A DNA stretch of 64,000 nucleotides from Rhodovulum robiginosum (GTDB lineage: Bacteria; Pseudomonadota; Alphaproteobacteria; Rhodobacterales; Rhodobacteraceae). Both the position numbers and the translations under genes were made by a program. How positions within the stretch are numbered: the first letter of the stretch is position 1; each line of letters begins with the position of its first letter. Of this stretch, positions 8,562 to 23,973 are shown in pieces. Under the pieces are notes generated by a model that was given only the letters and a program-made list of their open reading frames with translations, was not told the DNA's origin and did not search any database. Location of the stretch: contig NZ_RWGU01000049.1 in NCBI RefSeq assembly GCF_003944755.1, positions 186,001-250,000 on the forward strand, given 5' to 3'.

Positions 8562-8656
8562 CCCAATGCGGCCGATCACTATAGACGTGGCCGGTCAACG
8601 CGACCATATTGCCTGCGGCAAAGTGGCCCGAATTTGGCGAGCAGGGAACCTGTGAC

Positions 8657-9793: not shown

Positions 9794-12700
9794 ATGAGAT
9801 TTCCCCGACTCCACCACTTCATGACATCCACCAGCGCGGTCGCCCTTTACGGTGCCGGTGCGCTGACCCTCGCCGCCGTCTCGGTGGCCTCTGCGGACTG
9901 CACCGTCAACGGCGCACCTTCCAGCCCCCTGGTAACCGATGTCGTGCCTGACGGCGGGTCCGTGGTTTGCGATCCGGGAACCCGGTTGCAGAGCTTCGAC
10001 GGACGCGCGGATCTCGACACCGCGACACCGGCCGGCACGTTCGATGCCACGATCCGGACGGGCGCGGAACTGGTTGCCCCCGGATCGGGTCTCGGACAGG
10101 GGTCAGATCAGGCCGCGCTCTTTTTCGGCCCGCGAAGCACCGCCACCATCGAAAGCGGCGGAGAGGTCCGCGGCCCGGGCGCCGGGCCCGGTCTGATCGT
10201 TTTCACCGGCCCAGACAGCCGTCTCACGAACGACGGAAGACTCGCGGTGGTCGGGCGGAGGCCGGTCATACAGGGCAACCTCAACGGCGCGCTTCCGGCC
10301 ACGGGGCTCGAAATCGTCAACCGTGGCGAGATCAGCAACGTCGATGACAGCCCGACATTCAACGCCACGACGAGCGATCTGAGGGGCAGCGCCGCGATCT
10401 CCACCGCACCCGGAACCGTCATCCGGAACGAGGGGAGCATTCGACGAGCCTCTTCCGCGGGGTCGGCCGTGCTGCTCCAGGACGATGGAGCGCTGACGAA
10501 CGACGGCACGATCACCTTCGAATTCTCCGGCTTTCCCAGCTACGCGCCTTCCCCGAGCAACAGTCAGCAGGACACGATACTCGTGAATGGCGCCCCCGAC
10601 GCGACCATCGTCAACCGGGGGACGATCAGCATCGAGGGCGGCCGCGGCGACGCGATCAGTCTTTCGCAGTCGGATGGCGCCACAATCCTGAACGACGTTT
10701 CCGGGGCGATCCTGGCGACAGACGGTATGCTCGCGATCAACGTGTCTTCCGGCGACGATCTCCGCATCACCAACAGCGGTCGGATCGCGGGCGGTTCGGG
10801 CGGGCCGGCCATCGACGTCAACGGCGAGAACTTCCTGCTGATCCACAACGATGGCTCGGACCTGTCGGGCGACGTGAATGTAGAGGTCAGCACCAAAGCG
10901 TTGAAAACGCTGGACGAGTTTGCGGCCGCAGTCGGCCGGCCACCGCAACAAGCAGAACCCGTGTACAATCGGCGATGCACGGCTGGAACGCCCCCCCTGC
11001 CTTGTCTCAAGTCTGTGATTGCGCGCCCCCTTCAGGCGACCGCCGAATGGCGCACCGATGGTCCGATCGCGGTTGACCAGAGCCAAACCCGCTATTCGGG
11101 GATCAATACCTTTGTTCTGCGTGGCGACGGCGCTTTGACGCTGAGACAGGATTTCGAGGCTGCCAACGATCCGAGCACCTCGAACGGGACGATCGGAGAT
11201 TTCGCTGGCCGCCTGACCTTCTCGGCCCTGAACGCATCGGGCGAGATCAGGGCGTCCGGCGTGATCTCGGACGCCGCCGACGGGACGCAGGGCAGCCTGC
11301 GCAAGACCGGGGACGGCACCCTGATCCTGACAGGAAGAAACACCTATACGGGAGCTACGGCAATTGATGCTGGCACGCTGCAGCTTGGCAATGGGCGCGC
11401 GTCCGGTTCGATTGTCGGCGACGTGGCGAATGAGGGGACGCTACGCTTCAAGCGCGGTGACGTTCTTACCTACGGTGGCAAGATCACCGGATCGGGAAAG
11501 GTCGTTCAGGCCGGTTCGGGCGTCACCGTGCTGACGGGTAGAAACACCTATACCGGCGGCACTGAGATCCGTTCGGGCAAGCTGCAGCTTGGCGGCCCCG
11601 GATCCATTGAAGGCGATGTTCTCAACGAGGGCGTGCTGGTCTTCAACACGTTCCCCGGATATACGTTCAGCGGTGCGATCAGCGGCTCGGGTGCCGTTGA
11701 CAAGCAGAACCCAGGCACGGTCACGCTGACCGGTGCGAACACCTATACCGGTGCCACGACGATCAGGGGGGGCGAGCTTCGGCTCGACGGCAGCCTGACA
11801 TCGTCCCGTGTATTCGTTGCGCCGGGCGCGAGAATGAGCGGCACCGGCGCGACGACGGGAGAGGTCGTGGTCAGGCCGGGGGGCACGCTCGCCCCGGGCG
11901 GCAGCACACCCGGCGAGCAGCTGACGGTGGGCGATTTCAATCTTCTCGCCGGTGGTATCCTGGCGATCGATGCCGCGGAAAACCCGGTCGGCGGGCTCGT
12001 GTCGGACAGCCTGAACGTCAGCGGAACCGCGACCTTCGGCGAAAGCGCTGTCGGCGCGGGCCGGCCCTACGGGCCGACGGTGATCGACGTGACCTTCGAC
12101 GCCAACGCAACGGTCCCGGCGCTGGAGGGGATTAACGTGATATCCGCGGATGGCGGCGTAAAGGGCACCGCGCCCGGCATCGTCCTCGACCCGGCATCGC
12201 TGCCTAACGGCCAGAATTTTCACTTGAACCTTGAGGCCACGAACCTCGGCGGCACCTCCGCCGCGCCCGGCGAGGCGATCCCGGACGGGGCGGGCGGCGC
12301 AGGCTTCGTCATCCTCCAGGTCGAGAATACCGACCCGGTTTACATCGCGCCTCCGCAGGTCACCGTGATCAACGCGCCGCATCTCGTGCCGAGTGGCCGG
12401 CCGGTTCTTGCGCCGACGCATGTGCCGTCTTTGGTGCCGACGGCAACGCCCACCGCCACGCCGGTTCTGGTGCCGGCGCTGATCGCCGGCCCGACATCGA
12501 ACGTGACGACGCCCGTCGTCGTCGCACCCTCGACCGGCACGCCGCCCACGACCGGCACACCCCCGGCGACCGGGATCGCCGTAAGGCACCACGGCGTGCA
12601 ACTCGCCGGTGGTACGTTGACACCGCAGCCGCAGACGCCGACCGGCGTGCAAACGACACCGACCTCGATTCCGGTCGGAACGGTCAGTTCGGTCGTCGTC

Positions 12701-13996
12701 GTCGAACCGCCGAGCGATCTGGGCACCGTTGAATACGTCTCGATCAGCGGAAGCTACGGCGAAGTGAACCAGACGCACGCCAAGGACGGCACGAAATACG
12801 CACTGATCTACGCCCCGCACCAGGTTCAGGTTTCGAGTATCCCGACGGACTATGGAAACCTGACCACGCTCGGCGTTGCCCAGACCAGCACCCAGCAATC
12901 CGTCGGCCAGGCCGCGTCCGCGATATTGCCGGAACCGCACCAACGGCCCACCACGACGGATCAGGCAAACCTGGTCGCGGGGCTTTACCCCCTGGCGCTG
13001 GGCACCATCAACGACGCGCTGGATTCGCTGGCCGGCCTGGACGAGGACCCGACCTTCGTCACTGTCCTCAACACAAGAGCGTTCCAGAACACGATGGCAA
13101 GCCGTTTGCGCGACCGCCGCGACGGAACCGCGGACATGTCCCGCGGCCTGACGCGGGACGCGGCCGTGCCGGCAAGCGACCGCCAGGCCTGGGGCGAGAT
13201 CCTGGGGGGATATGCCGAAGGCGACTACCTGAACGGCTCGGATACCTGGACCCGGGGCTTTGTGCTCGGCGCCGACCAGAGTGTCTCGGAGAACCTGTTG
13301 GCCGGTGTCGCGCTCAGCTACTCTGGCGCGGGCATCTCTACTGACACCGGCTCGCAAGACGAGGTCAACACGCTGGAGGCCGCGGCTTACGGCACGTGGA
13401 CTTCGGGCGACTGGTTCCTGAACGGTAACGTCGGGATCAGCTACAACTGGCTGGATATGGACCGTGCCATTCGCGTGGGAAGCTATGGCGACGCGGTCTC
13501 GGGCAGCACCAACGCGACCAGCATCTTCACCGGGATCGAGGCCGGCAAGATCATCCGCACCTCATGGGGCGCATTGGAGCCGACGGTCGGCCTTCGCTAT
13601 CAGTATGTCGACCGCGACGGCTACACCGAAGGCGGCCCCGACACGCTCTCCCGCAAGGTGTCCGGAGAGGTTTTACACAGCAGCCAGGGTGTTCTCGGCC
13701 TGCGTGCCCACGGTACCTACAGGGGGGCCGGCGGCATCAAGTGGCGCCCCGAAATTCGCGCAGCCTATTCCCGCGAACTCGGAGACAGCGACATCAACGG
13801 CAGCGCGTCCCTGGTCAACGCGCCGGCAAGCACCTTCGACGTCTTCACGGCCGGTCCAGGCGAGGATGTCGGGATTCTTGGGCTGCGGCTGGACGGCAAG
13901 GGAGAGCGGGTCAACTACTTCGTCGACTATCAGGTCGAGGCCCGCGACGGCCTCGTGGCCAATCAGCTTCGCGTCGGTTTCAACATGAGGTTCTGA
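9794..13996 (+). CDS. Large autotransporter (type Va) with PATR repeats
   Basis: A 1400-residue outer-membrane autotransporter. The signal region (residues 1-34) ends VASA|DC. The passenger is rich in Gly/Asn/Thr strand repeats typical of a beta-helix; three clear PATR repeats (LTGRNTYTG or LTGANTYTG) lie near residues 512, 580 and 646. A long Pro/Thr/Val-rich linker (about 855-975, with TPTATPV and TGTPPTTGTPP) is an uncommon insertion between passenger and translocator. The C-terminal beta-barrel begins near residue 1130 (WGEILGGYAEGD) and ends in FNMRF, with the terminal Phe recognised by the Bam complex. No protease or lipase motif is visible, so adhesion or biofilm roles are most likely. 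No good ribosome-binding site; ACGAGG is the nearest. Confidence 0.92.
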   Translation: MRFPRLHHFMTSTSAVALYGAGALTLAAVSVASADCTVNGAPSSPLVTDVVPDGGSVVCDPGTRLQSFDGRADLDTATPAGTFDATIRTGAELVAPGSGLGQGSDQAALFFGPRSTATIESGGEVRGPGAGPGLIVFTGPDSRLTNDGRLAVVGRRPVIQGNLNGALPATGLEIVNRGEISNVDDSPTFNATTSDLRGSAAISTAPGTVIRNEGSIRRASSAGSAVLLQDDGALTNDGTITFEFSGFPSYAPSPSNSQQDTILVNGAPDATIVNRGTISIEGGRGDAISLSQSDGATILNDVSGAILATDGMLAINVSSGDDLRITNSGRIAGGSGGPAIDVNGENFLLIHNDGSDLSGDVNVEVSTKALKTLDEFAAAVGRPPQQAEPVYNRRCTAGTPPLPCLKSVIARPLQATAEWRTDGPIAVDQSQTRYSGINTFVLRGDGALTLRQDFEAANDPSTSNGTIGDFAGRLTFSALNASGEIRASGVISDAADGTQGSLRKTGDGTLILTGRNTYTGATAIDAGTLQLGNGRASGSIVGDVANEGTLRFKRGDVLTYGGKITGSGKVVQAGSGVTVLTGRNTYTGGTEIRSGKLQLGGPGSIEGDVLNEGVLVFNTFPGYTFSGAISGSGAVDKQNPGTVTLTGANTYTGATTIRGGELRLDGSLTSSRVFVAPGARMSGTGATTGEVVVRPGGTLAPGGSTPGEQLTVGDFNLLAGGILAIDAAENPVGGLVSDSLNVSGTATFGESAVGAGRPYGPTVIDVTFDANATVPALEGINVISADGGVKGTAPGIVLDPASLPNGQNFHLNLEATNLGGTSAAPGEAIPDGAGGAGFVILQVENTDPVYIAPPQVTVINAPHLVPSGRPVLAPTHVPSLVPTATPTATPVLVPALIAGPTSNVTTPVVVAPSTGTPPTTGTPPATGIAVRHHGVQLAGGTLTPQPQTPTGVQTTPTSIPVGTVSSVVVVEPPSDLGTVEYVSISGSYGEVNQTHAKDGTKYALIYAPHQVQVSSIPTDYGNLTTLGVAQTSTQQSVGQAASAILPEPHQRPTTTDQANLVAGLYPLALGTINDALDSLAGLDEDPTFVTVLNTRAFQNTMASRLRDRRDGTADMSRGLTRDAAVPASDRQAWGEILGGYAEGDYLNGSDTWTRGFVLGADQSVSENLLAGVALSYSGAGISTDTGSQDEVNTLEAAAYGTWTSGDWFLNGNVGISYNWLDMDRAIRVGSYGDAVSGSTNATSIFTGIEAGKIIRTSWGALEPTVGLRYQYVDRDGYTEGGPDTLSRKVSGEVLHSSQGVLGLRAHGTYRGAGGIKWRPEIRAAYSRELGDSDINGSASLVNAPASTFDVFTAGPGEDVGILGLRLDGKGERVNYFVDYQVEARDGLVANQLRVGFNMRF

Positions 13997-14268: not shown

Positions 14269-14454
14269 CCCGGACTCATCCGTACGCGAAGAGTCCACCC
14301 AAATCGGTGCCTCTCATGAAACGTCAGGATCGGTGAGGGGGCCTCGGCACCGGGCGCGAATGGATGTTTCTTGCGCCCGTGGGCTTTGGATAGAGCCATT
14401 GGTCTCAACGTTGCACCTGAACGAAAAATCAAAATGTTCCAGAAGGAAATTCAG

Positions 14455-15009
14455 ATGAAACGACCTGCCCTCGCCGCGATGACCGCGCTGGTTCTGACGT
14501 CGACGGCTTCGGCCCCCGCTCGCGCCAGCGAGGAAAGCGACAAGGCGGCCCTCGCCGCGCTGGCGATCCTCGGGATTGCCGCGTTGGCGCATCACGAAGA
14601 TCATTACCGCCAAGGTAACGCCCCCGCGAATGGTCAGCAGACGGCGGATTTCGAGCGTGGCTACCGCGACGGGCTGCACAACGAACCCTACAACTCCGCC
14701 AGATCGAGCGTGGCCTATGGCTCGGGCTACGACGCCGGGCACAAGGAACGCGCGAACCGCCTTGCCTACAAGCGGCACGGCGCGGCACAGGGCGCGCCCA
14801 ACCTGGCGATGCGCGGCTGCGTCGGTGAAGCCTCGGCCATGTGGAACCGCAACCCGCGTGACATTCATGTGGTCGCTTCGGCCCGGGGCAGCTTCTCGCA
14901 AGCGGGCGGTCAGGAGTACAGGGTGGAGGTCGCGGCCGGGCATCGGCATGCCGTGTGCAACGTCAATGCGGAGGGGACGGTCTTCAACGTCCGGAACGGA
15001 CGTCTCTGA
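14455..15009 (+). CDS. Secreted protein of unknown function, 184 residues
   Basis: Exported protein: a signal peptide (residues 1-24, cleavage near ARA|SEES), a short hydrophobic helix (AALAALAILGIAALAHH), then two similar Gly/Tyr repeats (FERGYRDGLHNEPYN and YGSGYDAGHKERANR). The C-terminal domain has two cysteines (MRGCVGE and AVCNVNAEG) that could form a disulfide. The Met at 14455 is chosen because AGAAGGAAATTC precedes it and it opens the signal peptide; the frame extends further upstream without a site. No family recognised. It heads a run of four small envelope genes. Confidence 0.7.
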   Translation: MKRPALAAMTALVLTSTASAPARASEESDKAALAALAILGIAALAHHEDHYRQGNAPANGQQTADFERGYRDGLHNEPYNSARSSVAYGSGYDAGHKERANRLAYKRHGAAQGAPNLAMRGCVGEASAMWNRNPRDIHVVASARGSFSQAGGQEYRVEVAAGHRHAVCNVNAEGTVFNVRNGRL

Positions 15010-15174
15010 CCAGCAAGGTCAGTCCCTGGTGGCGGCGATGGCCGCCCTCTGCCGCGCCGCCTGTGCTATCCCTCGTCGGGATATTGGCCATCGGCGCGGC
15101 GGAACCGGACGACGTATGAAAATGCGCCTCGCCCGAAACACCTAAGATCAGTTCGTTCATGGAGAACCAGAAAT

Positions 15175-15810
15175 ATGAAGTCCTTTTCATTCGCCCTGGC
15201 AACAGCCTCGACAGCCGTCACCCTCGGGGTCGCGTCGCCGGCAATCGCCGACGAGCAGGCCGCGATAGACGGCTGCATTGACCGACTGCGCGCCGAGGGC
15301 GGTCCCGACGCCCAGGCCGGCGGCGAAATCCTCAGCAGCGAGTTTTCCGAGGCCGGCACGCTGGTGATGCTGCGCGACGCGGGGGGCACCGTCTGGCGCT
15401 GCATCGGCTACAACGACGGCACGGTCGGCGAGCTGACCGTCGCGCAAGCCGCCGATGACGGGGGCGGTGCCATGGCCGGCGCATCGTCGGAGCCCGCGAC
15501 CACGACCGTACAAGTCCGTTTCGACGCCGGCACGTCGGGGGCGGAACTTACGGGCACGCTGTCGCCGGGCAGCAGCACGCGCTACGTGCTTGGCGCCAAC
15601 AACGGGCAAAACCTGTACGTCCGCGTTGCGACAGATACTGACGGCGTATTCTACCAGATCTTCAACCCCGACGGCTCTTTCCTGCTCGAGCAGATGACGC
15701 CGGACCGGGAGTACCGCGGCGAGCTTTGGCAATCGGGCGATCATGTCGTCGAGGTGATCAACCGCGGCAACGGCACGGCCGGCTACAACGTCATCTTCGG
15801 GATCGACTGA
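15175..15810 (+). CDS. Secreted two-domain protein, PliG/PPC-like C-terminal domain
   Basis: A 211-residue exported protein with a signal peptide to about residue 25 (SPAIA|DEQ). The N-terminal domain (26-95) has two cysteines (DGCIDRL, WRCIGYND). The C-terminal domain (about 115-210) follows a pattern of strand motifs (YVLGANNGQNLYVRV, then FNPDGSFLLEQ, GELWQSGDHVVEV, GTAGYNVIFGI) that I recall from bacterial pre-peptidase-like or g-type-lysozyme-inhibitor-like domains; this is recollection, not a search. It may bind carbohydrate or protein in the periplasm. AGAACCAGAAAT lies before the ATG, without a strong site. It is two bases upstream of the next gene, so the pair is cotranscribed. Confidence 0.72.
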   Translation: MKSFSFALATASTAVTLGVASPAIADEQAAIDGCIDRLRAEGGPDAQAGGEILSSEFSEAGTLVMLRDAGGTVWRCIGYNDGTVGELTVAQAADDGGGAMAGASSEPATTTVQVRFDAGTSGAELTGTLSPGSSTRYVLGANNGQNLYVRVATDTDGVFYQIFNPDGSFLLEQMTPDREYRGELWQSGDHVVEVINRGNGTAGYNVIFGID

Positions 15811-15812
15811 GC

Positions 15813-16166
15813 ATGAAAGAGCTTCGCCATTCGCTTGCGCTGTCTCTCGGCGCAGGGCCGGCCCTCGCTCAGGATGAAACCGCGCAGGCGGTCGGGGCCG
15901 GTGTCGGCTTGCTGATCGGGTTGCTGATCATGATCGTCGTGGGCGCCATCGTGGGCTGGCTTGCGAGCCTGATCGTCAAGGGTGGCGGCTCGGGCTTCTG
16001 GGGCGACGTCCTGATTGGGATCGGTGGGTCGATCCTCGCCGGCTATCTCCTACCTGCGCTCGGCCTTACCCTTGGGGGCGGGGTGGTCGGGGCCATCGTG
16101 CCTGCGCTTATCGGCGCGGTCCTTCTGCTGATGATCATACGTGTGATCCGCCGCCTCGCGGGATGA
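15813..16166 (+). CDS. GlsB/YeaQ/YmgE-type (transglycosylase-associated) membrane protein
   Basis: About 117 residues. The N-terminal 20 residues look like a short signal peptide (LSLGAGPALA|QDE), then three hydrophobic Gly-rich helices with the family motif IVGWLASLIVKGGG and ILAGYLLPALG. The YeaQ/GlsB family are small stress-induced inner-membrane proteins; family members usually have only the three-helix core (about 80-85 residues), so the signal-like extension is a variant. The start is two bases after the previous stop. A following short hydrophobic-basic tail ends RVIRRLAG. Confidence 0.78.
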   Translation: MKELRHSLALSLGAGPALAQDETAQAVGAGVGLLIGLLIMIVVGAIVGWLASLIVKGGGSGFWGDVLIGIGGSILAGYLLPALGLTLGGGVVGAIVPALIGAVLLLMIIRVIRRLAG

Positions 16167-16258
16167 GCGGGGCATTTCGTCGACAACGCCCTTATCCGGG
16201 CAACGCCTGGCCCGGAAACCGGGCCGCTACAAGTTCTATAAGTGAAAGGAAGACCAAT

Positions 16259-16564
16259 ATGACCCTGAAACTCAAACTCGCCGTCACCGCCGCCGCGCTT
16301 GCCGCGCTTTCGGGCTGCGTCGAGGAAACCGCGTCGACCGAGCCCGGCCGCCCGATGGTCGGCAGCGAATACGACCTGTCCTCGTTTGAGGGCGCGCGCG
16401 CCGGTCAGGCCGAAATGGGTCTTCAGAACCTCGGCTACGAGGCCATTCGCACCCAGGGCCTGACCACGTGGTGGTTCAACCGCTCGACGGGGGCTTGTGC
16501 CCGGATCACCACTTCCGACGGCCGCTATTCGGACCTGACCATGCTGCCCGCTCAAGACTGCTGA
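16259..16564 (+). CDS. Small lipoprotein, 101 residues
   Basis: A lipoprotein signal peptide with lipobox ALSGC, lipidated Cys at residue 19, and a mature domain of about 80 residues. The mature part ends in a compact pattern (TTWWFNRSTGACARITTSDGR... and LPAQDC) with two cysteines, seen in small alphaproteobacterial lipoproteins of unknown role. GAAAGGAAGACC lies just before the ATG at 16259. The frame is open upstream but without a signal. It ends the envelope gene run and is followed by a hairpin. Confidence 0.75.
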   Translation: MTLKLKLAVTAAALAALSGCVEETASTEPGRPMVGSEYDLSSFEGARAGQAEMGLQNLGYEAIRTQGLTTWWFNRSTGACARITTSDGRYSDLTMLPAQDC

Positions 16565-16597: not shown

Positions 16598-16681
16598 AAA
16601 ACCCACAACCGGCCGGCCATCCCCATCGGTTTTCTGAGAAAGCGGACTCAATTGGGATATTTCAATGATTGCCTTCTTGCG

Positions 16682-18241
16682 ATGAGCGGGTTCCGCCTGA
16701 TCTCAACGGTCGGGGCTTTCTGTCTTGCAGCGACCTGCACGGCATCGGCCGTCTCTGCGCAGGCGAGTGTCGAACCGCTCGAAGACTGCTTTTTCGCCGC
16801 CCCCGAGACCACGCCGCCGGTCGCTCAGGAATGCGGCTACGTGGTCTTGCCGGAAAACCCGGATCGGCCGGACGGACCCGAGATCAAGCTGGGTTTCCTG
16901 CGGCTGCCCGCCAAGGCGGAAAATCCGAAAGCCCCGCTGTTCATGCTGGCCGGCGGTCCGGGCGACAGCTTCATCAAGCCACCGACGCATCTGCTTTTCG
17001 GGGATGCCTTCCTGGGTCCGATCCTCGACGAGCGAGACGTCGTACTCCTCGACCAGCGGGGCACGCGCAACGCGATCCCCACGCTCGATTGCCCGTCTGC
17101 CTACAGCTTGCCCTGGGAGGCCAAGGAACGCGGGCTCGACGAGGCTGAAATGCTCGAGCTAAGCTGGCAAGTGCTCGCCGACTGCGTCGCGGATACGCGC
17201 GCGGCCGGCGTCGATCTTGCGCAATACAACAGCGTCCGCATCGCCGCCGACTTGGACGCGGCGCGTCAGGCCCTGGGCTATGGCCGGATCGTCTATTACG
17301 GCGCGTCCTACGGCGCCCAGCTCGGCCAGCATTACATGCGCGATTTCCCCGACAGCCTTGAGGCGGTGATACTCGACGGGGCGAACTCGCTGTCGCGGAA
17401 AAGCTGGGTGCAGGAGCGCGTGCGCGACGTCGACGTCGCCACCCGAAAGCTCGCCGCCCTTTGTGCCGCCGATGCCAAGTGCGGCGCGGCCTATAACGTC
17501 ACGGAAATGGTCGACCGGGCGATGGCGCTTTTCGACGAGGGGCCGATCGAGACCACCTATCAGGATCCCGCCGACCCCGAGACGCAGCTCGCTATTACCT
17601 TGACCGAGGCCGACCTCGCCGAGACCATCTTCGGCTTCCAGACCGGCCAGATCGGCATCCACGCTCTGCCGGCCGTTCTCGACACGATGCTGGCCGATGG
17701 CCGGGCCTCGGCGGCCGCATTGCTGGGCGACCAGAAAGGCGCGGCCATCGTCGCCTCCCGCGGGGCGACCGAGGGCGGCTCGGCCATCCTGATGCATATG
17801 GCCGTGGTGTGCTCGGACGATCCGGTGACATCGGCCGACGACATGATCATCGAACCCGACGCCAGCGCCTATGCGCGCGCCTACGGTGCGGCCGTGCTGG
17901 AGGAATACGTCGAATTCTGCCGGGCGGTCGATGTGCCCTCGCTGCCCGACGACACGGACGTGGACGTGACCACGGACGTGCCGACGCTGATCCTTGCCGG
18001 GGATCTGGACGCGCGCACCCCCGTGATCCGGAGCGAACTCGTCGCCGAGACGTTGCCGCGCGCGACCATCGTCGAGTTCCCGCAAGGCACGCATGTCCAG
18101 CTCGGCGAGATCAACCAGTGCGCCGGGAAGATCCTGAGGGCCTTCCTAGACGACCCGGACGCCACGCCCGACACGGGCTGCATCGCCGACATGCCCCGCC
18201 GCGGTTTCGTCCTGCCAGATGGCACGATCAGCGTGCAATAG
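16682..18241 (+). CDS. Secreted alpha/beta hydrolase, TAP (tripeptidyl aminopeptidase)-like
   Basis: A 519-residue exported hydrolase of the S33/TAP type. The signal peptide ends near SAQA|SVE. The oxyanion region reads LAGGPGDS, and DQRGTRN follows. The nucleophile elbow is GASYG (Ser near residue 209). The TAP-like C-terminal domain carries LILAGDLDARTPV (acid residue) and FPQGTHVQ (catalytic His). Five or more cysteines suggest periplasmic disulfides. Family members cleave N-terminal peptides or esters; the substrate is unknown. ATG at 16682 is preferred over an in-frame TTG at 16652 because the signal peptide begins there. The gene stands alone after a terminator-like hairpin. Confidence 0.85.
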   Translation: MSGFRLISTVGAFCLAATCTASAVSAQASVEPLEDCFFAAPETTPPVAQECGYVVLPENPDRPDGPEIKLGFLRLPAKAENPKAPLFMLAGGPGDSFIKPPTHLLFGDAFLGPILDERDVVLLDQRGTRNAIPTLDCPSAYSLPWEAKERGLDEAEMLELSWQVLADCVADTRAAGVDLAQYNSVRIAADLDAARQALGYGRIVYYGASYGAQLGQHYMRDFPDSLEAVILDGANSLSRKSWVQERVRDVDVATRKLAALCAADAKCGAAYNVTEMVDRAMALFDEGPIETTYQDPADPETQLAITLTEADLAETIFGFQTGQIGIHALPAVLDTMLADGRASAAALLGDQKGAAIVASRGATEGGSAILMHMAVVCSDDPVTSADDMIIEPDASAYARAYGAAVLEEYVEFCRAVDVPSLPDDTDVDVTTDVPTLILAGDLDARTPVIRSELVAETLPRATIVEFPQGTHVQLGEINQCAGKILRAFLDDPDATPDTGCIADMPRRGFVLPDGTISVQ

Positions 18242-18400: not shown

Positions 18401-18771
18401 TTGGGTTTCCTGTTCCAGGCCGTCTTTCTCGCCGCAATCGCCCTTTGCTTTACCGCCGGAGCCTTGGTGACGGCCAGCCTGTTCATCGCGGACCGGGCCC
18501 CGCAAGGCGGCACGTTTCTCGGCATCAGCCTGGTCGCCACCGGTGTCTTTCTGGTCCTTGGTTGCTGCTCTTCGGGATGCAGCGCCATGTCGCCGCGATC
18601 GCCGCAGTGGCGCAGCGCCGTGATGACGAGACCGCCGATGCCCTCAGGCCGGACGTGACGCGGCTTGTGGCCTATCTGCTGCTCGGCGGGGGCATGCTGG
18701 CCGCGATCCTGGCTGTCCTGAGCTATGCGATCCTGGCGCGGATCGACCAAGGGTTCGCGGTATTCGGCTGA
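18401..18771 (+). pseudogene. Small four-helix membrane protein gene split by a frameshift
   Basis: Two frames together make one plausible protein of about 123 residues. Frame one starts at TTG 18401 behind a perfect AGGAGGTGA site and gives two hydrophobic helices (FLFQAVFLAAIALCFTAGAL, then FLGISLVATGVFLVLG). It then turns into Cys/Ser/Arg-rich sequence near 18563. The -1 frame takes over there with LLLFGMQRHVAAIAAVAQRR, a polar stretch and a last helix (LVAYLLLGGGMLAAILAVLSYAIL), ending at 18771. No slippery heptamer is visible at the junction (CTTGGTTGC), so this is either a real inactivating indel or a sequence error. No family recognised. Confidence 0.6.
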
Positions 18772-19191: not shown

Positions 19192-19839
19192 ATGAAAATT
19201 GCCTTGTCGCTCGCTGCAGCGGTACTCTTGGCGATACCTTGCCACGCCGCCGACATTACCGCGCGAACCGGTGGCCCGTCGCGGGACGCGATGCTTGTCC
19301 GAACGGGGCCGGGCACTCCTGACGGCATGACCTTCTTCCGCCCGGTGTTGAGCGGCGTTCTTTACCGCGCCGGGTTTTCCGGCGGCGACAAGGCGCGGAC
19401 GGGGATGAGCACGGCCCAGCGGCAGGCGCTTTGCGGGGAAGGGTTTTCGCGCGCCTTCTACGCGGATTTCGGCAAGAATACCGAGTACGGCACCACGTCG
19501 TGCAGCACGGGCGCGCTCGACTACCAGTCCGCGCGTTCCTCACGGCCGGCCAACGTGATGAAGGCGGTCTACGATACCATCAAGTCGCCCTCGTCAGGGC
19601 CGGTTCTGGTTCATTGCATGTGGGGAGTTCACGCCTCTGGCGCGCTGTCCGCGATGGCGTTGGTACAGTTCTGCGGCTGGAGCGAGGACCGCGCGAAAGC
19701 CTATTGGAACGAAGCACGCAACGGGGCGCCGTGCGGCGGCGGGTGCGATGCCTGGATCGACAAGAAATTCGACAGGTTCAGCGTCGACCCGGCGCTGTCG
19801 ATCAGCGCCGCGGAGCGCGCGGCCATCTGCCCGAAATGA
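19192..19839 (+). CDS. Exported cysteine-phosphatase-like protein with altered P-loop
   Basis: A 215-residue protein with a signal peptide (to about A19-A20, CHA|ADI). The core resembles dual-specificity/tyrosine phosphatases: VLVHCMWGVHASG (138-150) corresponds to the HCx5R(S/T) P-loop. The nucleophile Cys142 is present, but the phosphate-binding Arg position (148) is Ala, with His147 beside it. I recall related bacterial proteins with the same HC..G.HASG pattern, so this may be a family trait, not decay. Five further cysteines may form disulfides. Start by AAAGGGGACC upstream of the ATG at 19192. It leads a five-gene unit; the next gene starts 18 bases after its stop. Function may be catalytic by another mechanism or substrate-binding only. 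Confidence 0.68.
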   Translation: MKIALSLAAAVLLAIPCHAADITARTGGPSRDAMLVRTGPGTPDGMTFFRPVLSGVLYRAGFSGGDKARTGMSTAQRQALCGEGFSRAFYADFGKNTEYGTTSCSTGALDYQSARSSRPANVMKAVYDTIKSPSSGPVLVHCMWGVHASGALSAMALVQFCGWSEDRAKAYWNEARNGAPCGGGCDAWIDKKFDRFSVDPALSISAAERAAICPK

Positions 19840-19857
19840 CCGGTCCGGAGGTCTGAG

Positions 19858-21291
19858 ATGAAGACAATCGCTTTTCTTGGCGGGGCGTTCCTTTTCGGCT
19901 CGGCCGTCGGGGCGCTGGCCTCTGACGCGGTTCGCGGCACGGCACAGACGTTCACAAGTCCCAACGGCATCACCGAGCGCTGCGTGCAGATCGCCCAGAT
20001 CCCCGGCGGCGACTATTCCAAAGGCGATCTCGAGGACGAGGCCGCGTATTGCGCGATCGACCTCTACGGCCCTGACGTCGCGCTCTGCCCCAAGACCTGG
20101 AGCACCAGCCCCGGCATGATGATCTACGACATCAGCGAGGGACCCTATGCAGGGGACCGGGCGCGGTTCCAGCGCAACGCCTGCGCGGAGGGCAAGGCCG
20201 CCAAGGACCTGGCCAAGGATGATCTGGCCAAGTTCAAGGTCACGATGAACGCCGAGGGCACCAGCGGCACCTTCTCGACCTCGTCGCTGCTTTACTACCA
20301 TTTCTCGCGCTACTTCGACATGGCGGTGAAGGTGCCCGTCGCGGTGTGGCGCGCGATGGACGCGGCCGAGCATGGGGCCGAGGTCGCCCGCCCAGGCCTG
20401 TCGCTGTCGGGCAAAACCGGCCGCATGAACCACGAGGGCTGGCGCCACCTCGTCGAGGCCGAGAAAAACCCTGCCTCCTATTCCCCCACCGATCACATGT
20501 TCACCGCCGACCGCGAACAGATCTACGGCGTGCTGCTGTCCAGTCCGGGGCATCGCTACGGGTCCGAGGTCAACGGCACCCGCGAATCGGGCTGGGGCAA
20601 GGGGCAAAATTACGACTTCCAGGAAACGCCGGGGTTTTTGGCGCTGCGCTCTTCCCTGCCGCTGGACCAGGCGATCGCCCACGGGCTGAAAGAGGCGCGC
20701 AAGGACGGGCAGATCAACCGCGATCTCGGGCCCGACGTGCCCGCCCAGCAGATGGCCTGGTGGATGCGCGAGATTTCCGAAATCGTGCTGCTCGACTACA
20801 TCTTCAGCCAGCAGGACCGGATCGGCAATATCGACTTCACGCCCTATTACTACTGGATCGAGGACGGCAAGCTGAAGCACAAGAAGGCCAAGCATCACGA
20901 GCCGGGCGACGGCGACGTGCCCGAGGGCGCGCTGCTGCTCAAACGCACGAACCTCAACGACAACGATGCCGGTGGCCTCGTGCGCTACGCCAATTTCGCC
21001 AAGTCGACCGAAATGCTTGAAAAGCTGAGGCATTTCGACGGGGGCGTCTATCGCCGCCTGGTTGCGCTCGATACCGACCTGCAGGCGCAGGGGCCGATCT
21101 ATGGCTGGCTGGAAAGCAGCCTTGGCCTGACCGACCGGGAGGTGTCGCAGGTGGTCAAGAATACGCGCCTCGCCACCGGCATCCTGCAGGAGAGCTGCCA
21201 GAGGGGCGAGCTGATCTTCGACCTCGATCCCGCGCAATTCCTGCTGACCGGGGCGGTGACGCCAGAGAAAGTGGCGTGCGACGGTGGCTAG
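19858..21291 (+). CDS. Exported protein with atypical-kinase-like (Fam20/HipA-like) motifs
   Basis: A 477-residue exported protein (signal to about A21). No database family is certain. Three features resemble secretory Fam20-type or HipA-type kinases: a possible nucleotide lysine (FKV, K127) followed by LLYYHFSRYF...KVPVAVW, like the 'helix plus VPxVV' segment after the kinase Lys; a catalytic-loop-like LLDYIFSQQDRIGNID (D320, N324); and a metal-site-like LNDNDAGG (D368/D370), resembling DxG. The Glu expected in the helix after Lys is not obvious. Eight or more cysteines suit the periplasm. It lies between a phosphatase-like and a phosphoesterase gene, with an 8-base overlap with the latter, which supports a phospho-transfer role (inference). 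CotH-like or structural proteins remain possible. Confidence 0.55.
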   Translation: MKTIAFLGGAFLFGSAVGALASDAVRGTAQTFTSPNGITERCVQIAQIPGGDYSKGDLEDEAAYCAIDLYGPDVALCPKTWSTSPGMMIYDISEGPYAGDRARFQRNACAEGKAAKDLAKDDLAKFKVTMNAEGTSGTFSTSSLLYYHFSRYFDMAVKVPVAVWRAMDAAEHGAEVARPGLSLSGKTGRMNHEGWRHLVEAEKNPASYSPTDHMFTADREQIYGVLLSSPGHRYGSEVNGTRESGWGKGQNYDFQETPGFLALRSSLPLDQAIAHGLKEARKDGQINRDLGPDVPAQQMAWWMREISEIVLLDYIFSQQDRIGNIDFTPYYYWIEDGKLKHKKAKHHEPGDGDVPEGALLLKRTNLNDNDAGGLVRYANFAKSTEMLEKLRHFDGGVYRRLVALDTDLQAQGPIYGWLESSLGLTDREVSQVVKNTRLATGILQESCQRGELIFDLDPAQFLLTGAVTPEKVACDGG

Positions 21292-22246
21292 GCTGGGCGC
21301 GCTGCTGGTCGTTCTGGTTCTCGCCCTGCCGGTCTCGGCGTGGTCGGCGCCGCTGCGCGTCGTCGTGATCTCGGATCTCAACGGCAGCTACGGCTCGGTC
21401 CGCTACGATCCGCGCGTTTCGGCGGCGGTGAAGAGGATCATCGGCCTGCGACCCGACCTCGTGATCTCGACCGGCGACATGGTGGCGGGCCAGCGCCGCC
21501 CGCACCTGTCGGGCAAAGAGGTGCGGGGGATGTGGGCCGGCTTTCATGCCGCCGTCAGCGACCCGCTGGCCCGCGCCGGCATCCCCCTCGCCGTCACGCC
21601 GGGCAACCACGACGCCTCGGCCTATCACGGTTTTGAGCGCGAGCGGCGCATCTACGCAGAGCAATGGCGCGGGCGGCGGCCCGATGTCGAATTCATCGAT
21701 GGGGCCGATTACCCGTTCTTCTACGCCTTCGACCTCGGCGGGGTGCGGTTCGTCTCGCTCGACGTGACCACGGTCGGGCCGCTTCGGCCGGCACAGATGC
21801 AGCGGCTGGAAACGGCGCTGGCGGATGCAGGCCCGGCGCGCATCGTGTTCAGCCATCTGCCGCTCTGGCCGTTCGCGCAGGGGCGCGAGACCGAGGTGAT
21901 CGGCGACCCGGCCCTCGAACGGCTGTTCGGACGGCTTGGCATCGACATGCATCTTTCCGGGCATCACCACGCGTTTTACCCCGGCTCGGCCGGCGGGATC
22001 GCCCTGATATCGCAAGCCTGCCTCGGGTCCGGGCCAAGGCGCCTGATCGGCGACAACGATCGAAGCGATCAGGCGATCACCGTGCTCGACATTACGCAAC
22101 AGGGTGATATCGGGGTCTGGGCGCTGAGCGGGCCGGCTTTCGACAAGCGAGTCGAGATCGGGGACCTGCCCGCCGCGCTGCGCAGCAAGTCGCGGGTGAT
22201 TGACCGCTTGGACAAGGCGCCTTTACCAGATGTGCGCTGGCAATAG
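21284..22246 (+). CDS. Exported calcineurin-like metallophosphoesterase
   Basis: A 320-residue binuclear-metal phosphoesterase with a signal peptide to about A22. Metal motifs in order: SDLNGSYG (D31-x-N33, where most members have DxH), TGDMV (D65), GNHD (107-110), FSHLP (H191) and GHHHAF (226-231). The fold is complete; the Asn for His in the first motif occurs in some subfamilies. The GTG start at 21284 lies inside the end of the preceding gene (8-base overlap), so expression is translationally coupled. The substrate may be the phospho-product of the upstream putative kinase, or a nucleotide or phosphodiester in the periplasm. Confidence 0.86.
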   Translation: MARLGALLVVLVLALPVSAWSAPLRVVVISDLNGSYGSVRYDPRVSAAVKRIIGLRPDLVISTGDMVAGQRRPHLSGKEVRGMWAGFHAAVSDPLARAGIPLAVTPGNHDASAYHGFERERRIYAEQWRGRRPDVEFIDGADYPFFYAFDLGGVRFVSLDVTTVGPLRPAQMQRLETALADAGPARIVFSHLPLWPFAQGRETEVIGDPALERLFGRLGIDMHLSGHHHAFYPGSAGGIALISQACLGSGPRRLIGDNDRSDQAITVLDITQQGDIGVWALSGPAFDKRVEIGDLPAALRSKSRVIDRLDKAPLPDVRWQ

Positions 22247-22283
22247 AGACGGGCCCACGACGCCCGGGGAACAGACAGGACAC

Positions 22284-23069
22284 ATGATGCGCCGAAATTT
22301 CGACCTCCACAGGATTGCCCTGTCCGCCTTCGTGATGGGGCTGGCCATCCTCTTGGCCCCGGCGGTGTTTGCACAGGCGTCCGAAGGCTCGCTCATGATT
22401 CCGGCCGAGATCGAGGTGCGCGGCCGGGGCTGGGCGCAGATCGTCAACTTCCGCGAGATGCTCGATTTCGCCCTGTCACTGACGGAGGTCACGCTTCTCA
22501 CGGCGCTGCTGGCCTTTCACCCGGTCAATATTGCGTACCGGTCCCGGACGGTGACCGACGACCTGCGCAAGGGCATGTTTTTGTTCGCGCTGATCGGCAT
22601 GCTGACCGGGTTCCTCGTGGTCCACCACGGCTACCTGATCGGCTTCGTCATCTTCGGGATCGGCGGGCTGTTCCGGTTCCGAATGGAATCCAGCACCATT
22701 GCGGACACCGGCCAGATGGTCATCGTGTCGTTGATCGGGCTCGCCGTCGGGCTGGACCTGCCGGTGATGGCACTGATCGGCGCGGTGGCGGCCTGGGTGG
22801 TTCTCTTTCTCTTCGGCAGGGGCCAGGCCCTTGGCCTGGAGGTCAAGTTCGACGAGAAGGGCAGCGATCCGGGCGCCGTGCGCCGCCTGCAGGAGCACCT
22901 AGAGGGCAAGGGATTCAAGGTCGTTTCCGTTGCCAAGACCAAGTTCAAGCCGGTGGCCCATTACGCCCTGTCCAGCCGGATGCCGCAGGCGCAATCGGCC
23001 CTCGTGCAGGAGATGTCGGAGATTCAGGCCCGCAAGGACAGTGGCGTTTCCGACTGGCATATCGATTAG
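22284..23069 (+). CDS. DUF4956-type inner-membrane protein
   Basis: 261 residues. The N-terminus has a signal-anchor-like helix (11-30, ending FAQA), then a periplasmic segment, four membrane helices (about 62-80, 96-113, 118-130, 145-180) and a soluble ~75-residue C-terminal domain (RRLQEHLEGKGFKVVSV...). The motif GIGGLFRFRMESSTIADTG matches the DUF4956 pattern (GlFRFR...D). In other bacteria DUF4956 genes often sit with CotH-type kinases and VTC polyphosphate-polymerase-like proteins (general knowledge), consistent with the kinase-like protein upstream. Two Met codons open the gene; ACAGGACAC precedes them. It starts 37 bases after the phosphoesterase and ends four bases before the next gene. 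Confidence 0.75.
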   Translation: MMRRNFDLHRIALSAFVMGLAILLAPAVFAQASEGSLMIPAEIEVRGRGWAQIVNFREMLDFALSLTEVTLLTALLAFHPVNIAYRSRTVTDDLRKGMFLFALIGMLTGFLVVHHGYLIGFVIFGIGGLFRFRMESSTIADTGQMVIVSLIGLAVGLDLPVMALIGAVAAWVVLFLFGRGQALGLEVKFDEKGSDPGAVRRLQEHLEGKGFKVVSVAKTKFKPVAHYALSSRMPQAQSALVQEMSEIQARKDSGVSDWHID

Positions 23070-23073
23070 GCCG

Positions 23074-23973
23074 ATGCGAGCCGCGCTCCGCTCCGGCGCC
23101 GCGATCGCCACCGCGCTCTGGGCCGCGGTCCTGCCGGCGGCCGAGGCGCAATCGACCGATCCGGGGAAACTGCGCCCGCCCGCCAGCCTGAGTTTTCTCC
23201 GCAGCTATCCGCTCCATGACAAGAAGGCCGGGCTGACCGAGCCCTCCGGCCTGATGATCGGGCCGGGGTCTGACGGCTTGTGGACCGTCAGCGACGACAC
23301 GCGGCGCCTGTTTCGCCTGGATGCACAGGGCCAGGTCATCGAGGTCGGGCCGAAGATCGACGCCCTGGTCGACCTCGAGGGTATCGCGCTGGGCGCAACG
23401 GGGCGCCGGATACTCGTGCTGTCCGAAGAGCATGCCGAGATCGTCGCCATCGACCGGCACTCCCCGCAACGCGCCGAACGCTTTGCGCTGCGCGAGATGA
23501 CAGGGTCGGACAAGCTGGCCGCCGCGATGGACGGAGACCTCGACAAGCTCTCGCCCGAAGGCATCGCCGTCGATACCGAAACGGGCGCCGTACTTGTGGT
23601 GAACGAACGCGCACCGCGCCTGCTGATCCGGATTTCACCCGATCTGGACGAGATTGTCTCGGTCCTTCCCCTCGGCGGAGACCGCGGGTTCGTGGCCCAT
23701 GGCATGAACGACCACAGGCTGGATGCCTCGGGCCTTGCCCATGATGCGGCACGGGGCGGGATATGGATCGCCAGCGATACCGGAAGATGCGTGTTCTATC
23801 TGGCCGAAGAGGCCGGACCCGCCCTTCGGTTCGACTTTCTCTGGCGCGACGGCGACAAGGTCCGGCCCATCGAAAATGCCGAAGGCATCGCCCTCGATGC
23901 GTCGGGGAAAACGCTGTTCGTGGTTTCCGATGACGGGACCCACTCAAGGCTATTCATCTACGGCGTCGACTAG
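23074..23973 (+). CDS. Exported SdiA-regulated / phytase-esterase-like beta-propeller
   Basis: 299 residues with a signal peptide (cleavage about AEA|QST) and a six-bladed-propeller-type repeat pattern: SGLMIGPGSDGLWTVSDDT, LEGIALGATGRRILVLSEE, SPEGIAVDTETGAVLVVNE, ASGLAHDAARGGIWIASDT and AEGIALDASGKTLFVVSDD. This fits the SdiA-regulated (PF06977) and 'esterase-like activity of phytase' (PF13449) families. Acidic residues in each blade could bind Ca2+. If it is phytase-like, its substrate would be a phosphorylated sugar or inositol, matching the neighbours. Last gene of the five-gene unit, four bases after the previous stop. Confidence 0.78.
   Translation: MRAALRSGAAIATALWAAVLPAAEAQSTDPGKLRPPASLSFLRSYPLHDKKAGLTEPSGLMIGPGSDGLWTVSDDTRRLFRLDAQGQVIEVGPKIDALVDLEGIALGATGRRILVLSEEHAEIVAIDRHSPQRAERFALREMTGSDKLAAAMDGDLDKLSPEGIAVDTETGAVLVVNERAPRLLIRISPDLDEIVSVLPLGGDRGFVAHGMNDHRLDASGLAHDAARGGIWIASDTGRCVFYLAEEAGPALRFDFLWRDGDKVRPIENAEGIALDASGKTLFVVSDDGTHSRLFIYGVD

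Follow-up and report, generated by a model that had tools for sequence, protein, structure and literature searches.

A conserved gene block of Rhodobacteraceae encodes an exported protein with a predicted Fam20-like kinase fold and may form an extracytoplasmic phosphorylation system

Phosphorylation outside the cytoplasm

Among the kinases of the animal secretory pathway, Fam20B acts as a glycan kinase and Fam20C as a protein kinase. Fam20 kinases carry motifs of the DR-loop and D-N metal-site types, which are like those of the bacterial protein described here. To our knowledge the addition of phosphate outside the cell membrane is seldom described in bacteria. A periplasmic kinase requires a phosphate donor, and ATP is thought to be scarce outside the cytoplasm.

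In part of a study of a Legionella, human and amoeba protein network, the FAM20 cluster is called eukaryote- or Metazoa-specific and four Legionella families are placed with the FAM20/CotH group (PMC9758233). The same paper describes the Lani_1194/NoeA kinase-methyltransferase neighbourhoods, where a kinase-like protein is encoded in an operon whose products are believed to modify exported factors; the block reported here is alike in this respect, whereas its architecture differs and it lacks a methyltransferase. Sets of CotH kinase, polyphosphate polymerase and DUF4956 genes adjoin pel operons, according to a portion of a further paper (PMC7112168), and the first-pass annotation, which had placed DUF4956 beside CotH and polyphosphate polymerase, holds for these pel-linked loci.

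The block and its products

The window analysed is a stretch of 64,000 nucleotides of Rhodovulum robiginosum DNA, which between 19192 and 23973 contains five plus-strand open reading frames with intergenic gaps of 18, -8, 37 and 4 bases, coordinates that agree with the one-direction run originally annotated.

19192..19839, + strand: gene 1, ptp, 215 aa, exported protein with a predicted DSP fold
19858..21291, + strand: gene 2, kin, 477 aa, exported kinase-like protein with a predicted Fam20-like fold
21284..22246, + strand: gene 3, mpe, 320 aa, GTG start, exported calcineurin-like metallophosphoesterase
22284..23069, + strand: gene 4, DUF4956-like, 261 aa, polytopic membrane protein
23074..23973, + strand: gene 5, propeller, 299 aa, exported SdiA-regulated / phytase-like protein

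Hydropathy bears out the suggestion that the products are exported or membrane-bound, with a hydrophobic signal-like N-terminus in 5/5 and several TM-like segments in gene 4. A keyword search of open-licence PMC papers returned no description of an operon of this kind among the matches listed.

The CotH-polyphosphate polymerase-DUF4956 set resembles the block in pairing a kinase with a DUF4956 membrane protein and in being polysaccharide-linked, as far as the extract of its description goes (PMC7112168). It differs in that the kinase of the block is of another family: a whole-genome search found CotH in 0/19 kin-bearing genomes (the control was positive in 3/14) and VTC in one of the 19 (G305). 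The block also adds ptp, mpe and the propeller gene, and its DUF4956 similarity is weak. A DUF4956-like protein linked to a second kind of kinase, where CotH was not found, offers a testable role for the DUF4956 family.

The kinase-like protein

What kind of protein does kin encode? By sequence it has no Pfam, NCBIfam or PDB match below E 1, where a single PDB kinase lies, and sequence profiles of its members gave no link to any kinase family. For 23 kin members the Pfam matches include no HipA family, CotH (PF08757) is matched by 0/23, and Fam20C (PF06702) is absent at E up to 10, a test in which the HMMER filters remove most matches above about 0.1. A PF06702 search of 150 genomes of the phylum likewise gave 0 matches, a result that says nothing on absence because the controls gave none either.

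A kinase-like fold of the 477-residue protein had been set as a test beforehand, and the AlphaFold2 model (pLDDT 90.7, pTM 0.89) is kinase-like and closest to Fam20. At E <= 0.001 Foldseek returned 16 PDB matches, every one a Fam20 chain; the best, 5yh0_B, is a Fam20C and has modest values (6.5e-5, TM 0.42/0.50, 11-13% identity). The best VIA match is hydra Fam20 (Z 17.9, 282 residues at 4.0 A), with Z values of 16.5 for Fam20C, 14.8 for the Golgi casein kinase 4kqb (a Fam20 chain) and 13.5 for Fam20A. PI4K II alpha (PI4KII) forms a second structural family at Z 14.8, level with 4kqb; HipA shows fold similarity alone (Z 9.9), and PI3K reaches a Foldseek E of about 1.

The candidate catalytic residues come from an alignment of 24 proteins, one of them from another family (G882).

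20092..20094, + strand: Lys79, candidate nucleotide-binding lysine, invariant in 24/24
20236..20238, + strand: Lys127, candidate nucleotide-binding lysine, invariant in 24/24
20815..20829, + strand: DRxxN catalytic-loop-like motif, D320-R321-x-x-N324, with D320, R321, N324 and I325 invariant in 24/24
20953..20967, + strand: LxDND, DFG-like metal-site motif, D368-N369-D370, with L366, D368, N369 and D370 invariant in 24/24

The D-R-x-x-N motif noted at first pass thus recurs in 24/24, as does LxDND at residues 366-370. In the model DRxxN sits between helix 296-315 and strand 326-335, and LxDND comes after strand 359-365; on motif order and these elements D320, D368 and K79/K127 are candidates for the kinase catalytic Asp, metal Asp and ion-pair Lys, and we infer a nucleotide-binding role for K79 and K127. 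Overall, it is well supported that kin has a predicted fold of the protein-kinase type, with animal Fam20 as the closest, and intact candidate catalytic residues. With the animal Fam20 kinases kin shares its predicted fold and export; its several conserved cysteines (C65, C77, C109, C447 and C474 invariant in 24/24, C42 kept in at least 90% of 23 members) may correspond to some of those in the four conserved disulfides of the Fam20 family. It is unlike them in its low identity, its lack of a PF06702 match, its bacterial source and its gene-block context. If bacteria have an exported family with such a predicted fold, this is relevant to where the Fam20 kinases came from and to bacterial phosphorylation outside the cytoplasm.

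Kinase-like folds with other activities exist, as part of one source sets out (PMC10870513), and the acidic ion-pair partner of the kin lysine was not found. Together with a neighbouring DSP-fold protein that is probably dead itself, this would suit a pseudokinase, or an enzyme of other chemistry such as AMPylation or glutamylation, within a binding or sensing complex. We regard that as quite improbable, given that DRxxN, DND and the two lysines are invariant in 24/24, which is unexpected for a decayed active site.

A probable pseudophosphatase

In Pfam, ptp has weak DSP/PTP matches alone (best 0.041, under the cut-off); a weak match to a phycobilisome protein was taken as chance. Its model (pLDDT 87.0) has a DSP fold, with TpbA as best Foldseek match (3.9e-5) and DUSP23/VHZ 2img as best VIA match (Z 13.1, 3.0 A over 138), and with SIW14 and the plant protein PFA-DSP1 also near the top of the structural ranking (VIA Z 12.4-12.6).

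19612..19641, + strand: P-loop HCMWGVHASG, with the Cys kept, Ala/Ser at the Arg position and a His just before it

This loop aligns with HCQGGADRTG of a DSP from the family (55 columns, hhalign probability 69%), and its consensus HC-x-x-G-x-H-[AS]-S-G is present in 23/23 rows, equal to 22 distinct loci. The C-x5-R signature is not kept: Arg is replaced by Ala/Ser in 22/22 distinct loci and the Cys is retained, because of which ptp is probably a pseudophosphatase. The altered P-loop described at first pass thus recurs throughout, a working phosphatase is unlikely, and the statement that four of the five genes carry phosphate-chemistry motifs needs trimming at ptp, where the catalytic Arg is absent. 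The conserved loss of this residue beside a kinase gene makes ptp a predicted bacterial pseudophosphatase to study. TpbA of Pseudomonas aeruginosa, a periplasmic protein, is reportedly a dual-specificity phosphatase tied to biofilm control; it shares the bacterial DSP fold with ptp, which differs in lacking the catalytic Arg and in adjoining a kinase gene.

The remaining products

The mpe product is well supported as an exported metallophosphoesterase with the main metal motifs. It scores 60.5 bits against Metallophos PF00149 (3.8e-16; cut-off 21.5), matches the purple acid phosphatase 6gja at 1.5e-5, and has D31, D65, G107-N-H-D110, H191 and G226-H-H-H229 invariant in 21/21; Asn33 stands where the D-x-H motif has His. 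Gene 4, annotated at first as DUF4956, is better called DUF4956-like, since its PF16316 match (6.8e-4, 19.8 bits) lies below the 30.6-bit gathering cut-off; 5 of 13 members scanned match the family at E <= 0.01, 6.8e-4 being the best. Gene 5 passes the cut-offs of both SdiA-regulated PF06977 (2.5e-14, 53.5 bits vs 21) and Phytase-like PF13449 (1.1e-9, 39 bits vs 27.6), and its propeller fold we take to be that of these two families. Plasmid searches gave no match for kin, the G882 kin, ptp or the DUF4956-like protein; for mpe (E <= 1e-20) they gave one Acaryochloris phosphoesterase at 32%, set aside with annotated neighbours unlike the block. A search of the viral structure library gave no match at E <= 0.001.

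The phytase-like score of gene 5, PI4K II alpha as second structural family of kin (level with 4kqb) and SIW14 and PFA-DSP1 among the best ptp matches raise the idea of a block that acts on inositol phosphates or on the head group of a phospholipid, in which a kinase of the lipid or inositol type would work with phytase-like, phosphoesterase and DSP partners. This appears improbable, as ptp lacks the P-loop Arg, gene 5 scores higher for SdiA-regulated and PI3K does not rise above a Foldseek E of about 1.

Conservation and co-occurrence

A conserved neighbourhood had also been set as a test beforehand. Genes 1-5 recur in 21, 23, 21, 18 and 13 of 23 other loci, counted with the duplicates L007 and L010 (of L028 and L030) and the fragments L005/L046 and L004/L045 left out, whereas each of the remaining genes compared across the window from 8609 to 36414 has homologs in 0-4/23, save three at 14371-16564. 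The block is conserved and its surroundings are not. Beside kin in the 23 Rhodobacteraceae loci stand ptp in 21, mpe in 21 (and in a 22nd, G079, by tblastn), the DUF4956-like gene in 19 and the propeller gene in 14; ptp is missing from two.

Across 394 genomes of the family kin occurs in 18 (E < 1e-100), with one more genome outside it, and ptp in 16 (E < 1e-80), all within those 18 (hypergeometric 1.3e-26, relatedness uncorrected). The DUF4956-like gene is present in 14/18 kin-bearing versus 0/104 kin-free family genomes (Fisher 3.6e-15, relatedness uncorrected); four of the 18 have no match, nor has G882. Among the genomes tested, the DUF4956-like protein is tied to kinase-bearing genomes alone.

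Divergence correlates between kin and mpe (0.81), ptp and kin (0.65) and the DUF4956-like and propeller genes (0.69), and at 0.10-0.40 between the latter pair and the other three, L069 being left out throughout. We read the block as a core triad of ptp, kin and mpe with a mobile pair of DUF4956-like and propeller genes, so that of the fixed five-gene module first proposed the conserved block stands and the fixed composition does not. The complete set is found in 14/23 loci, in 13 of them in one direction, in two orders. That incompleteness, in part among contigs that end early, and the pair's failure to follow the triad are what one would expect of neighbours without a common function; conservation of the block but not its flanks, and the restriction of the DUF4956-like gene to genomes with kin, make this highly improbable.

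G882 (7.5 Mb, another family) has ptp and kin at its locus, without mpe, DUF4956-like or propeller genes there; in its own family 2/119 genomes match its kin, G882 itself and a short fragment with stops (E 8.6e-4). A second exported G882 protein (L069:5176-6339) looks kinase-like by eye, with DRxxxxN and DNG; hhalign does not connect its profile with that of kin (probability 0.3%), and it matches nothing in Pfam, in NCBIfam or in the plasmid search.

A possible function

The reading we favour, tentatively and at somewhat under an even chance, is that the block forms a periplasmic or extracytoplasmic phosphorylation system whose target may be a glycan of the cell surface. In this scheme kin would phosphorylate a periplasmic or cell-surface target; as with Fam20B, a sugar is the likeliest, here one within a polysaccharide that is exported or lies at the surface. 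The mpe product might remove the phosphate or recycle the product, ptp as a pseudophosphatase might bind or position the target or regulate the kinase, the DUF4956-like protein could be a membrane partner that anchors kin and perhaps helps deliver the phosphate donor, and the propeller-type protein may bind substrate or product.

A glycan target is favoured because the best VIA match of kin, hydra Fam20, is a glycan kinase according to part of its published description (PMC5865150). Further hints come from the two most diverged family loci, where kin lies near polysaccharide genes (a DUF3131 gene and a deacetylase/GT2 synthase, by Pfam for L043), from an HGSNAT-type acetyltransferase cluster in 5 loci (by Pfam for the L006 copy) and from the pel-adjoining CotH sets, in the portion of the source that describes them (PMC7112168). 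The glycan hints are confined to few loci. A bolder extension, rather unlikely as it stands, holds that DUF4956-type proteins are dedicated partners of extracytoplasmic kinases, separately acquired by CotH and by Fam20-like kin, which supply or couple the donor across the inner membrane, and that the block would correspond, in bacteria, to the glycan kinase of the animal secretory pathway and phosphorylate a polysaccharide of the cell surface.

Neighbouring genes and regulation

Two features lie upstream of the block.

14371..16564, + strand: associated non-core cluster for small exported proteins, of which one has a Transgly_assoc domain (Pfam, recurrence near the block)
16652..18241, + strand: TAP-like alpha/beta hydrolase (PF00561, PF08386), an occasional neighbour with homologs in 3/23 other loci

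Could kin instead phosphorylate exported or surface proteins, as a protein kinase resembling Fam20C or CotH, with mpe and the propeller protein as accessories? The top Foldseek chain is a Fam20C, whose VIA Z of 16.5 compares with 17.9 for hydra Fam20; CotH is itself a protein kinase, as stated in part of its description (PMC7112168); and small exported proteins near the block in up to 11/23 loci are possible substrates. By eye no substrate is evident among the five products, and polysaccharide genes lie near kin in the two family loci that have diverged most. The autotransporter at 9794-13996 was dropped as a substrate because it is found in 0/23 other loci. We consider a protein target unlikely, albeit a serious alternative to the glycan target preferred above.

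The case for a PhoB-like box ahead of the block is not convincing because the mismatches lie near the shuffled level: the best window site has 4 against a shuffled mean of 4.75, and the mean over 24 loci is about 4.4 against about 4.7, with 2 mismatches in L006 and 3 in L037 and L039. Within the small exported cluster, homologs of 14371-15009, 15175-15810 and 16163-16564 occur in 6, 11 and 8 of 23 other loci, and 15726-16166 is found in 0/23 by tblastn, yet its blastp cluster covers 7 loci.

The gene block and its products

As the first-pass annotation had it, five genes lie in one direction at 19192-23973, with intergenic gaps of 18, -8, 37 and 4 bases in an open-reading-frame reading of the window:

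19192-19839, + strand, ptp, phosphatase-like (P0001)
19858-21291, + strand, kin, kinase-like, 477 residues (P0002)
21284-22246, + strand, mpe, metallophosphoesterase (P0003)
22284-23069, + strand, DUF4956-like (P0004)
23074-23973, + strand, propeller, SdiA-regulated/phytase-like (P0005)

The accompanying claim that all five products are exported or in the membrane agrees with hydropathy, which predicts a hydrophobic signal-like N-terminus in each and several transmembrane-like segments in the fourth. Among relatives, a hydropathy threshold is passed by 22 of 22 ptp, 22 of 24 kin, 20 of 21 mpe and 13 of 14 propeller proteins, the four exceptions (two kin, one mpe and one propeller) scoring near it.

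The model of P0001 (pLDDT 87.0) has a dual-specificity phosphatase fold, for which Foldseek ranks TpbA best (3.9e-5) and VIA ranks DUSP23/VHZ (Z 13.1), plant PFA-DSP1 (12.6) and SIW14 (12.4). The altered P-loop reported earlier, HC-x-x-G-x-H-[AS]-S-G, is found in 23 of 23 alignment rows, representing 22 distinct loci. When aligned over 55 columns (probability 69%) with a dual-specificity phosphatase from the same bacterial family, whose P-loop is HCQGGADRTG, ptp retains the Cys and has Ala or Ser at the Arg position with His just before it. Judged from these residues classical catalysis is unlikely, and ptp more probably binds a partner or ligand or acts in regulation. P0003, a calcineurin-like phosphoesterase, has the metal motifs, bar Asn33, which stands where the D-x-H motif of such enzymes has its His. 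The naming of gene 4 as DUF4956 stands as similarity, five of 13 scanned members matching the family at E <= 0.01, and not as membership, P0004 itself falling under the Pfam cut-off; P0005 exceeds the cut-offs for both SdiA-regulated and Phytase-like.

Conservation of the block

The neighbourhood is conserved in related genomes. Over 23 distinct Rhodobacteraceae loci, some on short contigs (4936 bases in L028) where absence of a gene is no proof, kin has ptp and mpe beside it in 21 loci each, a DUF4956-like gene in 19 (same strand in 15) and the propeller gene in 14; tblastn added a 22nd mpe, in genome G079. All five genes are co-directional in 13 loci, seven with the order ptp-kin-mpe-DUF-propeller and six with DUF-propeller-ptp-kin-mpe. 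Other window genes tested, from 8609 to 36414, each turn up in between 0 and 4 of the 23 other loci, with the exception of a small exported-protein cluster of which three genes recur in 6, 11 and 8 loci and the fourth in none. Since flanking genes are so rarely shared, the conserved unit is the block and not the surrounding region, in which the following were noted:

8609-9586, AraC-type regulator, with a homolog at four of the 23 other loci
9794-13996, autotransporter (PATR repeats; beta-domain match at 1e-44), with no homolog at the 23 other kin loci
14371-16564, small exported proteins, most of them unassigned to any family, found close to the block in as many as 11 of 23 loci
18401-18771, small membrane-protein-like reading, by eye seemingly split over two frames, either decayed or a sequencing artefact

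A four-locus cluster (c15), AraC-type by eye, follows mpe in L038.

With L069, the locus outside the host family, excluded, pairwise divergence correlates within two groups (kin-mpe 0.81, ptp-kin 0.65, ptp-mpe 0.45; DUF-propeller 0.69) and little between them (0.10-0.40), and we therefore read the module as a core triad of ptp, kin and mpe plus a pair often exchanged or moved.

Association with DUF4956

A P0004 search of 100 family genomes gave a match in nine, each about 3.5 kb or less from kin, which is present in 10 of the 100. When a profile was run against 30 selected genomes, 10 with kin (one belonging to the 100, another being G882, from outside the family) and 20 lacking it (six belonging to the 100), five further matches appeared, every one in a kin-bearing genome at the kin locus; G882 and the 20 kin-lacking genomes gave none. 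Among family genomes the totals are 14 of 18 with kin vs 0 of 104 lacking it (Fisher 3.6e-15, kinship ignored), the 104 comprising 84 covered by the single-protein search only, 14 by the profile only and six by both, with G028, which holds a kin remnant, scored as kin-lacking.

The earlier statement that DUF4956 genes often lie beside CotH kinases and polyphosphate polymerases elsewhere holds for pel-linked sets of streptococci, clostridia and bifidobacteria, as portrayed in the relevant passages of PMC7112168. Unlike these sets, the block has another kinase family in the place of CotH, and its genes were not seen to include a polymerase. Among 19 kin-bearing genomes CotH was found in none and VTC in one, G305 (locus L074), whose VTC-type polyphosphate polymerase (1.6e-31) lies on a contig other than the block's. 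We regard the block as akin to the CotH/DUF4956 sets but built on a new kinase family, with a putative function.

The kinase-like protein and its possible substrate

P0002 has no match up to E 1 in Pfam, NCBIfam or PDB sequences, and a 23-protein kin profile retrieves a single PDB chain, phosphorylase kinase, at E 1. The 23 members match no Pfam kinase family at E up to 10; PF06702, the Fam20C profile, is likewise unmatched, and by sequence kin is a family separate from Fam20. The AlphaFold2 model from the same alignment is confident (pLDDT 90.7, pTM 0.89), and its predicted fold is kinase-like and closest to Fam20. All 16 Foldseek matches in the PDB at E <= 0.001 are Fam20 chains, headed by Fam20C (6.5e-5, TM 0.42/0.50). 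The top-ranked structure in VIA-align 2 is hydra Fam20 (Z 17.9, 282 residues at 4.0 A), followed by DrFam20C1 (16.5), PI4K II alpha (14.8, tied with Fam20 chain 4kqb) and Fam20A (13.5), with CtkA (11.5), actin-fragmin kinase (10.9), HipA (9.9) and CotH (9.3) lower. The kinase-like character proposed in the first-pass annotation agrees with the predicted fold, Fam20 being nearer than HipA or CotH.

Eight residues (K79, K127, D320, R321, N324, D368, N369 and D370) are the same in all 24 aligned proteins, among them a 479-residue relative from another family. In the model the D320 loop connects a helix to a strand, and a strand further on leads into D368-D370. Kinases place catalytic and metal-binding residues in such positions, and the order of elements suggests that these residues occupy the corresponding sites; an acidic partner for the kin lysine was sought and not found. 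Neither the operon nor a bacterial Fam20-like exported kinase is described among the keyword matches listed from open-licence PMC text, in agreement with the earlier view of the operon as undescribed. PMC9758233, which compares proteins from Legionella, human and amoeba in one network, calls its FAM20 cluster eukaryote- or Metazoa-specific, and places four families from Legionella in the FAM20/CotH group.

What, then, would kin phosphorylate? The best Foldseek match, Fam20C, is a protein kinase, and the chief competing reading, held with lower probability, is that kin acts on a protein. The hydra enzyme ranked first by VIA is active on a Gal-Xyl disaccharide but on none of the proteins tried (PMC5865150), which by analogy hints at a glycan. 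The level standing of PI4K II alpha with some Fam20 chains speaks for inositol phosphates or a phospholipid head group, which we regard as improbable. The Foldseek ranking and this tie lower our estimate for a surface-glycan phosphorylation system and slightly raise those for both rivals. A glycan is nevertheless favoured, from few loci, by the hydra match, the pel-linked DUF4956 sets and neighbouring genes. For instance, a DUF3131 gene directly precedes kin in L043, and farther out lies a divergent polysaccharide deacetylase/GT2 synthase (Pfam); in L044, which has homologs of both, a single gene on the opposite strand separates the DUF3131-type gene from kin; and an HGSNAT-type acetyltransferase cluster (Pfam on one copy) occurs in five loci, in four directly upstream of the block. 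Phosphorylation of a surface glycan is accordingly our leading reading, held tentatively at somewhat under an even chance.

Distribution among genomes

Named relatives are Cognatishimia, Tateyamaria (Roseobacteraceae, Rhodobacterales in NCBI taxonomy), Celeribacter, Shimia and Silicimonas, together with two unplaced bins; the family name Rhodobacteraceae used here is deduced from them. Within the family kin occurs in 19 of 394 genomes, 18 at E < 1e-100; the 19th, G028, has a weak fragmentary match adjoining an mpe-like match, a probable decayed copy of the block (L004/L045). Transposase-like genes were seen by eye near these matches. Co-occurrence in other genomes is evident for ptp as well as for the DUF4956-like gene: ptp is found in 22 of 394 genomes, 16 strongly and six at E 8.1e-9 or weaker, and all 16 fall within the 18 kin genomes (hypergeometric 1.3e-26, kinship ignored).

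Beyond the family kin is rare: the host is the one positive among 385 class genomes, and in 249 phylum genomes there are two, G882 besides the host. In G882 ptp and kin lie side by side, no mpe, DUF or propeller gene being found near them, and as G882 alone is positive among 79 genomes of its genus, transfer into it is suggested. A second exported protein adjoins the pair (L069:5176-6339); it has no Pfam/NCBIfam match, and its DRxxxxN and DNG motifs look kinase-like by eye. Locus L070 (6547-8404) of G409, a genome without kin, holds part of a ptp gene (residues 23-88 matched at 46%, with an internal stop) adjoined, by eye, by proteins like the 14371-16564 set, and also by an integrase piece (Arm-DNA-bind_3), hinting at island-borne gain and loss.
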